The notes under the pieces are model-generated. The model did not search any database, was not told the DNA's origin, and was given only the letters and a program-made list of their open reading frames with translations. A program made the translations under genes and the position numbers. A DNA stretch of 64,000 nt from Biomaibacter acetigenes. GTDB lineage: Bacteria > Bacillota > Thermosediminibacteria > Thermosediminibacterales > Tepidanaerobacteraceae. The DNA is taken from positions 1,736,001-1,800,000 of the forward strand of contig NZ_CP033169.1 in the NCBI RefSeq assembly GCF_003691585.1, read 5' to 3'. Positions 56,183 to 62,878 of this stretch are shown in pieces. Numbering within the stretch: position 1 is the first letter of the stretch; each line of letters begins with the position of its first letter.

Positions 56183-57829
56183 TTATAAAAGTTGTCCACT
56201 TTCTCTTGTGACATCTATAAGTACATCCCTGTTTAGCTCATCCACCACAAAAAGTTTTCCCTTTGCCGCCTTAGTAATATTTATAAGGCAATCTTTATTA
56301 GGTTGAAGGCCGATACAGCAAAAATCTATATTTTTCTTGGCTATTTTTGATGCCGCATTTATAGCATCTTTGATGGGGTCTTGCGTCCAGAGGGAGACGG
56401 TGGGGATTCCATCGGTTATGAGTATTATCAGGGGATTTTTTACAAGTCTGGAACTCATATATGAAATGCCCTTATCAATAGCAAGGGCCAGGGGTGTAAG
56501 ACCTGTGGATATTATTTCATTGAGCCCAGCATCAAGAGTGCTGAAGTTTCTGGTAAAAGGCACATACACCTTGACTTCCCTTTCCTGAAAAGCCAGCACA
56601 CTAATCCTTCTATGAAAATTGAGCACCAGATGTTTTGCCAGAAATTTGGCATTTCTAAGCCGGTAACCAGCCATACTGGCACTGGCGTCTATAATAAGAC
56701 ATATGTCCTGGCTCATCTTTGGATTGCGCTTTAAAGAAACAAGGTCCTGCTCATCTATACTGAATCTTTGTTTTTTGCAATAACATCTTGTGAGGGCGTT
56801 TTTTACTGTTTCATTTATTTCCAGTTCCCCAATCCAATTTGCCGGATTAAATGTTTCAGAAATAAGCGGGCCCTTATTATCCAGACCTGTCCTATTTGAA
56901 GAATACACGATGTGAAACCCATTGTTATTTTTTAGTTTCGGTAAATTTTTTATGAATTTCTTTAACATTAGCTCCAATTCTTTTCGGTTTACTTTAAAAT
57001 AATCCTTCAGCTTTATTCCATCCCTGGTGAGGCAATAGCAATTTGAGTCTTTTTCAATAAAATTGTTTTGTTCCATATGTTTAATTATATCATCCATGTC
57101 ACCGTATTTTTTCTTTAAATTGTATAGGTTATCACCCGAGACCTGACTTCTGCTCAAAGCATCTAAAATATCCTCTATTTCCCTTATACTGTTAAAATGC
57201 TCAATTAAAGCGGCGGCTTCCCGGCGTATCTTATTATCGTAAGTGTTTGACCAATTCTGTCTGAGGTTGGAATCCGAATTTGTGGCGTAGGGTGACATAT
57301 CTATGGGGTAGCTGCCTATCTCATTGAAGATTTTTTCCACTTTTCTTAATTCAATATTTTGCAATTGTATAACTTCTTCCACCTTATCTACCAGAAAAAA
57401 CACCATATCAAGCCTGTCATCGGGAATTAAACCCGCCAGGTGGACATGGTTCAGATGGTCTTTTACAAGGCTTTCACTCAGACCATAGTTTAAACTACCG
57501 GAAAGCCTGCCGCCGCCGCTTCCGGTCTGAATATCTATATAATCAATAAAATTGTTCAAACCACTTTCTACCATGCTTTTTTTTAAGTATTCGGCAGCTT
57601 TTTTAATATCAATAGCAGCGATTTCGTGAAACAAATCTATATGGATGATTTCATTTTCATTAAACCGATTGTAAAAAACCCGTCCAGCATCGGAGTTCAT
57701 TATTATATGCACTTCTTCCGGTTGATGCGGGTCTATGGTGTGAATTTTTCTGCTGACTACCGCGGTTTCCCCAATCCTTACCCCCCTGTGTTTCTCCAGT
57801 TCTGAGCGGAGTATTTCTACATGTATCAC
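56183..57829 (-). CDS. VWA-domain protein (magnesium-chelatase D-like)
   Basis: 548 residues. A long helical N-terminal part (about 1-370) without a motif I recognise is followed by a von Willebrand A domain with an intact MIDAS: IIDASASMAG (DxSxS, about 382), the Thr in STGLTPLALA and ITDGIP. The GTG start overlaps the MoxR stop (GTGA). MoxR plus VWA pairs act as metal- or cofactor-inserting chaperones in other systems; the client here is unknown. Confidence 0.85.
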   Translation of the reverse strand: MIHVEILRSELEKHRGVRIGETAVVSRKIHTIDPHQPEEVHIIMNSDAGRVFYNRFNENEIIHIDLFHEIAAIDIKKAAEYLKKSMVESGLNNFIDYIDIQTGSGGGRLSGSLNYGLSESLVKDHLNHVHLAGLIPDDRLDMVFFLVDKVEEVIQLQNIELRKVEKIFNEIGSYPIDMSPYATNSDSNLRQNWSNTYDNKIRREAAALIEHFNSIREIEDILDALSRSQVSGDNLYNLKKKYGDMDDIIKHMEQNNFIEKDSNCYCLTRDGIKLKDYFKVNRKELELMLKKFIKNLPKLKNNNGFHIVYSSNRTGLDNKGPLISETFNPANWIGELEINETVKNALTRCYCKKQRFSIDEQDLVSLKRNPKMSQDICLIIDASASMAGYRLRNAKFLAKHLVLNFHRRISVLAFQEREVKVYVPFTRNFSTLDAGLNEIISTGLTPLALAIDKGISYMSSRLVKNPLIILITDGIPTVSLWTQDPIKDAINAASKIAKKNIDFCCIGLQPNKDCLINITKAAKGKLFVVDELNRDVLIDVTRESGQLL

Positions 57830-59163
57830 CTGCGGAGTTCCTCCTCTTTTTTTACATAATCCTTTAACTCCAGCTGCTTAATGGATAAAGCCTTTCCCGA
57901 AGGAGCCTTAATATCTATATTTTTAGGGTCAAATGAAAGTGGTCTGCTGCTTTTTCCGCCTGCAGAAGGCGAAAATTTATTTGTTAAATATGACATCATT
58001 TTTTCAACAGGATTAAAAAATCTATCCTGTAATTTCCTGGCATTCGCCCCGGTCTTTTCGTTGTTAGTTTTTTGCAAAATAGTTTTTTTTGATTCCGGGT
58101 CCAGGATTTTTACTACGGGTTCCGATTTTTTTTCAGCCTGACATCTTTTTTGTTCCAGATACTTCATAAGTTCATTTAAATTTTTAGCGTCCATCCTGTG
58201 GCGAAGGGCGAATCTTGACAAAAATATAATTTCTTCGATATCCGGAGATTTTCCCAGAAGTGCTCCCCTTATTCTCGCCCCCAGCATTATTGCTTCAATG
58301 CTTCTCAGGCTCTCCAGACCAAAATCCACATACATCGAAGCCAGTATGGCCTTTATTTCGTCAGAAATGGAAAAATCATTGATTATTGTTTGAGTTTGCC
58401 GGAATTTTTCTTTTTTAGCTTCTATCATTCCACTGTCGTAATTGTGTTCATTATTTCCATCCAATATCATCTTTAAAACACCTGTATCCAGTGGTCTTTC
58501 TACATTTACTGAAAAATCAAACCGGTCAGAAAGCTGTCTTCTTATATCTTCAAGAGGTCCCGGTTCTTCGTCGGGATTTGAAGCCGCCCAGATACTTACC
58601 TGAACGGGTATTACAACGGTGGGTAATCCTACTTCCTCTATTTGGATCCTACCGGGTTTTGTTCCCATGACATCCAGCAAGATATCCGCAAGTTCCGGAG
58701 CAGTATCTGCAATACGGTTTATCTCATCTACAAATATTATCCCTCTGTGAGCCCGGGGAATGGTTCCTAAAAGCAGCGCTGCTTCAGGGTTATCTCTTGA
58801 AGCTATTTTCTTGAGGTCGATGCTTCCAATCACCGTACCTTTTTTTGCAGATGGGGAAATTTCCAGAAAAGGCATATCGATTAATTCAATATCGAGGTTT
58901 TCTATTTCCTTTTTTGAAAGATTTCTGTGCTCAGGACAGTGCGGATTCAAAGGATCACAGTTATACACGCATCCCTTTATCCTTTCAATTTTTGGTAATA
59001 TGTCTTTTGCTGCCCTGATAATGGTGGTTTTACCCGTACCTCGAAGTCCTTCGGCGTGAAAATGTACCGGCATATTTGCCAGAGTTCCGAGAATAGAAAT
59101 ATCAATCAAATCAAATAAAAAATTGTTGCCCGGGTGCCGTATTAGTTGAGAATAATTCTTCAT
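57826..59163 (-). CDS. MoxR/magnesium-chelatase I-like AAA+ ATPase
   Basis: About 445 residues. Walker A GLRGTGKTT (about 42-50), Walker B IIFVDEINR (about 150), sensor 1 WAASNPDEEPGPLEDIRRQLSDRFD. Between Walker A and B is a cysteine stretch CVYNCDPLNPHCPEH that could bind metal. The C-terminal ~90 residues are basic and disordered-looking. ATG 59163 follows GAGAGGG. Operates with the VWA protein encoded next; no large chelatase subunit nearby. Confidence 0.87.
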   Translation of the reverse strand: MKNYSQLIRHPGNNFLFDLIDISILGTLANMPVHFHAEGLRGTGKTTIIRAAKDILPKIERIKGCVYNCDPLNPHCPEHRNLSKKEIENLDIELIDMPFLEISPSAKKGTVIGSIDLKKIASRDNPEAALLLGTIPRAHRGIIFVDEINRIADTAPELADILLDVMGTKPGRIQIEEVGLPTVVIPVQVSIWAASNPDEEPGPLEDIRRQLSDRFDFSVNVERPLDTGVLKMILDGNNEHNYDSGMIEAKKEKFRQTQTIINDFSISDEIKAILASMYVDFGLESLRSIEAIMLGARIRGALLGKSPDIEEIIFLSRFALRHRMDAKNLNELMKYLEQKRCQAEKKSEPVVKILDPESKKTILQKTNNEKTGANARKLQDRFFNPVEKMMSYLTNKFSPSAGGKSSRPLSFDPKNIDIKAPSGKALSIKQLELKDYVKKEEELRR

Positions 59164-59230
59164 ACACATCCCTCTCTAAAAAATCCTGCTGTCATAACAA
59201 TATTTTCTCCTAAAAGGATATTTTTAATAA

Positions 59231-59259
59231 AAAAAAAAGAGGCTACTCAGCCTCTTTTT
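59231..59259 (-). terminator. Terminator after the coiled-coil protein gene
   Basis: AAAAGAGGCT pairs with AGCCTCTTTTT over a 4-nt loop; on the minus strand about ten T follow. The gene's stop codon is within the loop. Confidence 0.88.
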
Positions 59260-59554
59260 CACCTAAAATTCTATTGACTTTTTCTTCTAGAATTTCAAGC
59301 CTGTGTTTAATCTCCTCTAAATCGGATTTTTTTACTATCTTCATTGATGAGATAACATTTTCCACCTGTTCCTGGACTTTCTGCTTTAATTTTTCTCTCT
59401 CTTCCTGCATTTTACTCAATAAGTTGTTTAAAGCATCTTTTCCGTCTTCTTTTGATAGTTCACCTTTTTTTACCAGTTCAGATATAATCTCTTCAGCTTT
59501 CTCTTTAGTAAGGGTGGCAAGACCTATGCCTGCATAAAACAGTTCTTTAAACAT
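59243..59554 (-). CDS. Phasin/PhaR-like coiled-coil protein
   Basis: 103 residues: a short hydrophobic start (FKELFYAGIGLATLTKEKAEEIISELVKKGELSKEDGKDALNNLL) then a coiled coil to the end (MQEEREKLKQKVQEQVENV ... RLEILEEKVNRILGE). The pattern matches the phasin-like/poly-hydroxyalkanoate regulator families often annotated in Clostridia without PHB genes. Function unknown. Confidence 0.75.
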   Translation of the reverse strand: MFKELFYAGIGLATLTKEKAEEIISELVKKGELSKEDGKDALNNLLSKMQEEREKLKQKVQEQVENVISSMKIVKKSDLEEIKHRLEILEEKVNRILGEKEAE

Positions 59555-60454: not shown

Positions 60455-61696
60455 TTATACACCATATAATTTTTTGTTGGTGAAGAGCTTTGCGTTTATC
60501 AAATTTACTAGAATTACTCTTGTAACAGTAATAGCCGTAAACATACTGGTGAGGATACCGATTATAAGTGTTACCGCAAAGCCTTTAATCGGCCCGGACC
60601 CAAAGTATAAAAGTACAACCCCGGCTATAATGGTAGTTACATTGGAGTCGATTATGGTGTTCAAGGCTCTGTGGAATCCAGCGTCGATGGCCGCTCTCAA
60701 TGTCTTTCCATTTCTCAGTTCTTCCTTTAATCTTTCAAAAATCAATACATTAGCATCAACTGCCATACCTATAGAAAGAATAAATCCTGCAATACCCGGT
60801 AGGGTTAAAGTGGCTCCGATGGCTGTAAAAATTATTAAGACAAGCATCACATATACAAGGAGGGCAAAGTCCGCCACAAGACCGGGAATACGGTAATAAA
60901 ACAACATGAATAATAATACCACAATAACGCCTATTTCTCCCGCTCTAATGCTCTTGCTCAGCGAGTCTGCTCCCAGCGTGGGGCCTATAGCCATAACCTG
61001 CCTCTGTTCCAGGTCCACAGGAAGAGCACCGGCCCGGATTAAAGTAGCCAGTTCTCCGGCTTTATCAATGCTGGGTAGCCCGGTAATTACCGCTTCGCCT
61101 CCTGTGATTACATCCTGAACGGTGGGAGCCGAAATAACCTGATTATCAAGTTTTATGGCAATTTGCTGATGTAAAAATTTAGAGGTTGCATCAGCGAATT
61201 TTTTTGCGCCTTTTGAGTCCAGCTTCAAGCTAACCATGGGTTCACTTTTATTTCCGTAAACTGCCTTTGCATCTCTCACATCGTCTCCGGTCAGAATTAC
61301 CTTTCCGTCGGGGCCGACAAATTCCAGGGAAGCTGTTTTACCGATGATGTCTAGTGCCTTCTGAGAATCCTTGACACCGGGCAGTTCAACTCTAATCCTT
61401 ATATCACCCTGTCTGGTGATGAGGGGCTCGGCCACACCCAACTGGTCAACCCTTCCCCTTATGACTTCCACTGCTCCGTTCATTTTTTCATTTGTTACGG
61501 CTTCCCCCGGTTTGGGCTTGGCCTCGAGCAGTACCGAAACGCCGCCCTGTAAATCAAGGCCCAGTTTAATGGCTTTTTTAATGGGAACAACTTTGTAGCC
61601 GGCCACCTGAAAACCAACAAGAAGCGAATAGGCTAAAAAGGCTGCCAAAATAACTGCGGCTACTATTTTGAGTATACTTTTAGTTTTTAAATCCAT
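60455..61696 (-). CDS. secD: Protein translocase subunit SecD
   Basis: 413 residues, the short form typical of Clostridia. First membrane helix (about 9-30), LGLDLQGGVSVLLEAKP, the P1 domain, and five C-terminal helices with SIGMAVDANVLIFERLKEELRNGK. Works with SecF, SecYEG and YajC; yajC is nearby in the same locus. Confidence 0.96.
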   Translation of the reverse strand: MDLKTKSILKIVAAVILAAFLAYSLLVGFQVAGYKVVPIKKAIKLGLDLQGGVSVLLEAKPKPGEAVTNEKMNGAVEVIRGRVDQLGVAEPLITRQGDIRIRVELPGVKDSQKALDIIGKTASLEFVGPDGKVILTGDDVRDAKAVYGNKSEPMVSLKLDSKGAKKFADATSKFLHQQIAIKLDNQVISAPTVQDVITGGEAVITGLPSIDKAGELATLIRAGALPVDLEQRQVMAIGPTLGADSLSKSIRAGEIGVIVVLLFMLFYYRIPGLVADFALLVYVMLVLIIFTAIGATLTLPGIAGFILSIGMAVDANVLIFERLKEELRNGKTLRAAIDAGFHRALNTIIDSNVTTIIAGVVLLYFGSGPIKGFAVTLIIGILTSMFTAITVTRVILVNLINAKLFTNKKLYGV

Positions 61697-61835: not shown

Positions 61836-61857
61836 AAAAAGGGCCTCTTTCAGGCCC
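61836..61857 (-). terminator. Terminator of scfA
   Basis: GGGCCT (61841-61846) pairs with AGGCCC (61852-61857); on the minus strand the stem is followed by TTTTT (plus 61836-61840). It separates scfA from secD. Confidence 0.8.
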
Positions 61858-61860
61858 GAA

Positions 61861-62010
61861 TTATTTATCTTTTTGGCAAACCTGATTTGCTACTGTACAG
61901 GAAGTTTTGCATGCTGATTGGCATGAAGATTGACATTCTCCACAGCCTTTTTTTCCAACACTTTCACTGCAATTCAAATTTCCCTTATGTATTGTTACAA
62001 TATGGCGCAA
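61861..62010 (-). CDS. scfA: SCIFF six-cysteine ranthipeptide precursor
   Basis: 49 residues from TTG after GGAGGAGC. Cysteines at 23, 26, 30, 34, 38 and 45 in the run CGECQSSCQSACKTSC...VC match the SCIFF family (six cysteines in forty-five residues); there is one extra Cys at 14. The leader starts MRHIVTIHKGN, also typical. SCIFF peptides receive thioether cross-links from the radical SAM enzyme ScfB. That maturase is normally adjacent but is not between secD and yajC here. Neighbours (secDF, TIGR04086, yajC, tgt) match the usual SCIFF locus. Confidence 0.93.
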   Translation of the reverse strand: MRHIVTIHKGNLNCSESVGKKGCGECQSSCQSACKTSCTVANQVCQKDK

Positions 62011-62042
62011 TGTAAGCTCCTCCTTTTAATTTTTCTTAAAAG

Positions 62043-62071
62043 ATTATAACATAAAATGGTACTAATGAAAA
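62043..62071 (-). promoter_or_regulatory. Probable promoter of scfA
   Basis: On the minus strand: TTTTCA (62066-62071), 17-bp spacer, TATAAT (62043-62048). The -35 is weak. It suggests the peptide can be made apart from the yajC operon. Confidence 0.6.
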
Positions 62072-62146: not shown

Positions 62147-62530
62147 CTACAGATTCACTCCCAGCACCCCTGCCAGTGCTCCTACAGCAAAGCCTAAAAC
62201 TAAATCTATCACCGTACCCAAACCAAAAGACATCGAAGGCATGACAAAAAGTCCCAGTATTAAAAGTATAGCTACGTATAAGAATCCAATCAACCCTCCA
62301 TGGAGCCAGCCAAGTTGTTCAATATCCCTGGTAGCGTTTATACCGCTTATTATTATACTCACCGCACTCAATACTATCACTACTGGAGGTATGATGTTTT
62401 CGGATATTTTAGTGAAATACAGTATTCCACCGAATATTAGAAACAAAACCAGTGTCAGCAAGTAAGCATTTAAAGTGCCCCGGGCAATTTTAATGTAATT
62501 TAGACCTTTTTTTATCTTGGAAGACTTCAT
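62147..62530 (-). CDS. TIGR04086 family membrane protein
   Basis: 127 residues with four membrane helices (about 20-40, 46-66, 76-96, 104-125) and the family pattern GINATRDIEQLGWLHGGLIGFLYVAIL. Found beside SCIFF genes in Clostridia; role unknown, possibly peptide export or immunity. Its ribosome-binding site is buried in a hairpin. Confidence 0.9.
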   Translation of the reverse strand: MKSSKIKKGLNYIKIARGTLNAYLLTLVLFLIFGGILYFTKISENIIPPVVIVLSAVSIIISGINATRDIEQLGWLHGGLIGFLYVAILLILGLFVMPSMSFGLGTVIDLVLGFAVGALAGVLGVNL

Positions 62531-62593: not shown

Positions 62594-62878
62594 TTATTCG
62601 CTTTTTTCCGCTTTCTTTAAAACATTTCCTATAGCCGAGCGTGTCACCTTTATCTTTAGTTTGTCTCCAACTTCTAAAGTTATGACATCTTCCTTGATGT
62701 TAAGAATCCTACCGTAAATCCCGCCGATGGTGATAATATCATCACCTTCTTTTAAGCTGGCGAGCATATTTTTACGATCTTTTTCCCTTTTTTGCTGAGG
62801 CCTGATAATCAAAAAATAAAAGATCGCAAATATTAATATTAGTGGGCCAAATTGCTGCAGGAAAATAGCCGGATTCAA
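62594..62878 (-). CDS. yajC: Preprotein translocase subunit YajC
   Basis: 94 residues: one membrane helix (about 10-24), then RPQQKREKDRKNMLASLKEGDDIITIGGIYGRILNIKEDVITLEVGDKLKIKVTRSAI. Accessory of SecDF. Between tgt and the TIGR04086 gene. Confidence 0.96.
   Translation of the reverse strand: MNPAIFLQQFGPLILIFAIFYFLIIRPQQKREKDRKNMLASLKEGDDIITIGGIYGRILNIKEDVITLEVGDKLKIKVTRSAIGNVLKKAEKSE

Follow-up and report, generated by a model that had tools for sequence, protein, structure and literature searches.

The locus

The stretch of DNA analysed here, 64,000 nucleotides of Biomaibacter acetigenes (contig NZ_CP033169.1, positions 1,736,001 to 1,800,000), is referred to as the window. Towards its right end lies the gene row tgt-yajC-TIGR04086-SCIFF-secD-secF, with the following features.

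61861..62010, minus strand: scfA, SCIFF ranthipeptide precursor; TTG start, 49 aa, 7 Cys; TIGR03973, single copy, aligned with the SCIFFs of relatives
62017..62026, minus strand: ribosome-binding site AAAGGAGGAG upstream of the scfA TTG; a strong Shine-Dalgarno site, by sequence
62043..62071, minus strand: promoter-like TTTTCA-17-TATAAT with TG before the -10 (extended -10); scan, 10 of 12 matches
61841..61857, minus strand: terminator-like hairpin GGGCCTGAAAGAGGCCC followed by the T-run TTTTTATATG, directly after the scfA stop; scan
60455..61696, minus strand: secD, the next gene downstream of scfA; TIGR01129, 412 bits
59570..60451, minus strand: secF; open reading frame recognised by eye and by membership of the same homology cluster as secD
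62147..62530, minus strand: TIGR04086 membrane protein; 91.4 bits, cut-off 30
62594..62878, minus strand: yajC; TIGR00739, 98.5 bits
62954..64000, minus strand: tgt, continuing past the window end; TIGR00430, 544 bits

The product of scfA, as translated in the list of open reading frames, is MRHIVTIHKGNLNCSESVGKKGCGECQSSCQSACKTSCTVANQVCQKDK. It matches TIGR03973 with 67.7 bits (E 6e-19) in the profile search of the window, and since the curated cut-off is 50 bits, this SCIFF match is far beyond chance. The same model applied to the whole genome gives the peptide 66.1 bits and identifies it as the only SCIFF of the organism. Counting the cysteines bears out the original prediction of a 49-residue SCIFF with six core cysteines and a seventh in the leader: they stand at residues 14 (leader) and 23, 26, 30, 34, 38 and 45 (core). 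A SCIFF, usually some 45 residues long, should have six cysteines in its C-terminal core, as this one does. The core, CGECQSSCQSACKTSCTVANQVC, has the usual SCIFF form, and the threonine acceptors of the C-K-T-S-C-T segment that follow the fourth core cysteine (residue 34) are present (...CKTSCTVANQVC). When relatives' SCIFFs are aligned, the CQSACKTSC core is almost invariant. TTG or GTG starts occur in the SCIFF genes of several relatives as well.

The usual neighbours named in that prediction are also in place. Profiles identify secD downstream of scfA and TIGR04086, yajC and tgt upstream of it, and secF was assigned downstream by eye and by its homology cluster. The predicted absence of ScfB between 61.0 and 64.0 kb extends further, as neither the list of open reading frames nor the profile search of the window contains a radical SAM gene anywhere at 56.2-64.0 kb. 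Two other features lie beyond secDF. A small coiled-coil, phasin-like protein (59243-59554, minus strand; NF047773, 37.9 bits, cut-off 35) adjoins secF and is conserved in relatives. A gene pair at 56183-59169 (minus strand), kept downstream of secDF in several relatives, encodes an AAA ATPase of 447 aa and a VWA-type protein of 548 aa; both match cobalto-/magnesium-chelatase models below the cut-off.

The flanking signals suggest how scfA might be expressed. An AGGAGG-like site occupies the same place in most relatives, a TG(T/C)TATAAT-like element stands at about the same distance upstream of their scfA, and a similar hairpin follows the scfA stop in those relatives that were inspected. Because promoter-like and terminator-like elements flank scfA and recur in relatives, scfA looks like a single-gene transcription unit with its own putative promoter and terminator. 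The scan found another promoter-like site, with perfect consensus, ahead of secD (61764-61735).

The maturase is encoded elsewhere in the genome

The genome consists of one contig of 3.4 Mb and is 99.6% complete, and we searched it with profiles. The search for the TIGR03974 maturase that had been proposed as a check yields one full-length ScfB (G000:C1:1358269-1359603, plus strand), an open frame without stops that scores 620.1 bits against a cut-off of 425. Two other TIGR03974 matches score about 20 bits, which is background; controls yield similar values. The distance from the scfA match to scfB is 438,270 bp, so that scfB does not lie directly downstream of scfA in this genome, nor is the maturase just beyond the locus and cotranscribed, the case that had been named as one that would make the locus ordinary.

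ScfB residues 41-485 align to CteB (5wgg/5why) with 538 bits. In this alignment the enzyme retains the radical SAM motif CxxxCxxC in the form CNLRCKYC, as well as the C-terminal cysteines of the SPASM auxiliary clusters. A full-length ScfB with these motifs in the same genome means that the pair is complete, and the enzyme looks functional as judged from its sequence. Hence, of the two fates that had been offered for the maturase, "elsewhere" is right and "lost" is wrong. The idea of a lost maturase and a relic peptide, prompted by the window having no maturase, has practically no chance of being true, given an intact ScfB on the same contig and an almost invariant SCIFF core. What had been suspected to be an orphan SCIFF is thereby removed. 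It is very probable that the window gene encodes an ordinary SCIFF whose product is modified in trans. This is a known family and a complete system with its genes apart, a modest curiosity of genome layout; what is new are small details, namely the class-wide separation of scfA and scfB and a recurrent leader cysteine.

We also considered whether ScfB might have private substrates. A screen for small cysteine-rich open reading frames up to 2.5 kb from scfB, which covered the class and its sister group in the ScfB tree, showed nothing recurrent other than FmdB-like zinc ribbons and probable chance reading frames. The weak second SCIFF matches that these genomes contain are unconvincing.

A search of contigs with ScfB brought up two loci only, both from Tepidanaerobacteraceae. 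One is an odd second match in G007 (L029, on contig 1, which seems to be the contig of L025 too), an open frame in which about 310 residues resembling, by eye, an aldehyde ferredoxin oxidoreductase are fused to ScfB residues 106-390. Its ScfB part is 88% identical to the ScfB of the window genome, which makes it closer to that enzyme than the full-length copy of G007 is. It may be a fragment produced by recombination or an error of the assembly.

How common the separation is

Each of the two genes is present in 14 of 14 good genomes of the order. Among the high-quality genomes of the class (completeness at least 95%), both occur in 13 of 13 and are adjacent in none. In the four that are single contigs the genes are 57, 309, 404 and 438 kb apart; for the remaining ones separation means that they lie on different contigs. 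Retention of both genes in all 13 with adjacency in none suggests that selection keeps the pair without linkage.

Our sample of the phylum comprises 298 genomes, with the maturase in 232 and the peptide in 233. Among the matches listed, which are the best ones and therefore biased to high scores, 129 genomes have comparable positions, and in 106 of these scfA precedes scfB on the same strand by 16-390 bp. The other 23 (again among the matches listed) comprise the 13 class genomes plus 10 more, so that outside the class 106 of 116 are adjacent and 10 are not. In those 10 genomes the two genes are on different contigs, and since they span several families, separation probably arose more than once. 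The absence of a neighbouring maturase is real, but the oddity implied originally becomes smaller: separation is the rule in the class and is found elsewhere in the phylum.

Separation need not be costly. In many linked genomes a hairpin between scfA and scfB is also apparent by eye, which means that the peptide may exceed the enzyme even there.

History of the separation

In a tree of 57 ScfBs, the 13 class sequences group in a single clade (support 100/99). The surroundings of scfB are shared by most genomes of the order, with a dnaG/rpoD-like block on one side and mraZ/mraW/ftsL-like genes on the other (names read from the sequence, without profiles). In the window genome, G001 and G007 the neighbours are different and mutually similar, some of them being common to the rest of the order. 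Given the single clade and the scfB neighbourhood shared by most of the order, the separation is, on the evidence of these comparisons, an old trait of the class that would have been kept by descent. Two accounts of its origin can be offered. They are rivals on history only; maturation in trans would be identical under both.

We give about even chances to a single move of the native scfB away from scfA in the class ancestor, with further rearrangement in G022. The single clade and the neighbourhood that most of the order share fit such a move, as does the fact that scfA remains at the secDF/yajC locus. G022, however, belongs to another order and has a different scfB neighbourhood, and the sister group of the class clade also counts against a simple move. 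That sister group (99/96) consists of G115b, G050a, G203 and G168. The first two are extra ScfBs, not linked to SCIFF, carried by genomes of other families that also hold a linked one (G115 C1:934033-935367, L100; G050 C34:1845-3182, L101), and the ScfB of G203 is unlinked.

As the nearest relatives include second unlinked copies of other families, it is conceivable, though we consider it somewhat improbable, that in the class ancestor the linked ScfB gave way to an enzyme of an unlinked lineage (paralogous or acquired by transfer), which took over the resident SCIFF, while scfA stayed beside secD. The outgroup G115 has the row yajC-SCIFF-scfB-secD-secF, with scfB at the position left empty in the window, which suggests that this is the older layout. 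The AU test weakly rejects a grouping of the class with the linked G115a, G210 and G176 (p-AU 0.031), but this group was named after the tree had been seen, and the tree contains 57 sequences only. Moreover, the tree would be explained equally well if the native gene moved in the ancestor and the unlinked copy was later passed to other families.

A bolder version of replacement can be imagined. A second unlinked maturase lineage in Bacillota, "ScfB2", would have displaced the linked enzyme in the class ancestor and driven a change of the leader (two more residues and the recurrent extra cysteine); in genomes with both enzymes, the target of ScfB2 may be a different peptide that has escaped recognition. 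We regard this as unlikely. Near the second maturases L100 and L101, no gene for a cysteine-rich peptide was recognised.

Known systems and possible function

Ranthipeptides are characterised by thioether bonds to the beta or gamma carbon of residues in the mature peptide. The pairs CteA/CteB of Clostridium thermocellum (thermocellin) and Tte1186a/Tte1186 of Caldanaerobacter subterraneus belong to the same two families, TIGR03973 and TIGR03974, as the pair of the window genome, whose ScfB aligns with CteB (5wgg) nearly end to end. Their genes are adjacent, whereas those of the window genome are 438 kb apart. In both known systems a single thioether was found, which links Cys32 with a threonine (PMC8326336, PMC8172795). 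Like SCIFF, freyrasin (PapA/PapB, Paenibacillus polymyxa) is a ranthipeptide that depends on a radical SAM/SPASM enzyme, but it has another precursor and six Cys-X3-Asp bridges.

By analogy with CteA/CteB and Tte1186a/Tte1186, the following route can be proposed. ScfA would be made from its single-gene transcription unit. ScfB, encoded 438 kb away, would bind the ScfA leader, and its radical SAM chemistry would join core cysteines to nearby residues via thioether bonds. The mature peptide would have a conserved cellular role, probably in signalling and not in killing. When precursor and enzyme were disrupted in C. beijerinckii, sporulation genes went down and agr went up (Chen et al. 2020, cited in PMC8102284). 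That SCIFF and maturase have both been retained during evolution although their genes are not adjacent (13 of 13 good class genomes) supports a conserved physiological function.

Every ScfA is expected to have an ScfB (PMC5300114), and the window genome obeys this expectation. The survey behind it collected 234 radical SAM genes at most 500 bp from a SCIFF gene (PMC5300114). Because selection was by this distance, separated pairs like the present one were invisible to it; cluster-based mining that demands adjacent genes can overlook a whole class of SCIFF systems.

Variation of the leader

Compared with most of the SCIFFs aligned, the scfA product of the window has a leader that is two residues longer and carries an extra cysteine. 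The start-to-core distance is two residues longer in most members of the order, and among 20 members compared, 13 carry a cysteine in the leader (at residue 14 in two, including the window peptide, at 13 in eight and at 11 in three); seven have none. In the aligned SCIFFs from outside the class it is absent; a single exception, at residue 2, hinges on which start is chosen. Its shifting position among members of the order counts against a single fixed structural role. Leader variants of this natural kind could be of use in mapping substrate recognition by ScfB. In L104 and L115 (G203 and G168, whose ScfBs belong to the sister group of the class) the core reads CGECKNSC instead of the usual CGECQ[STA]SC.
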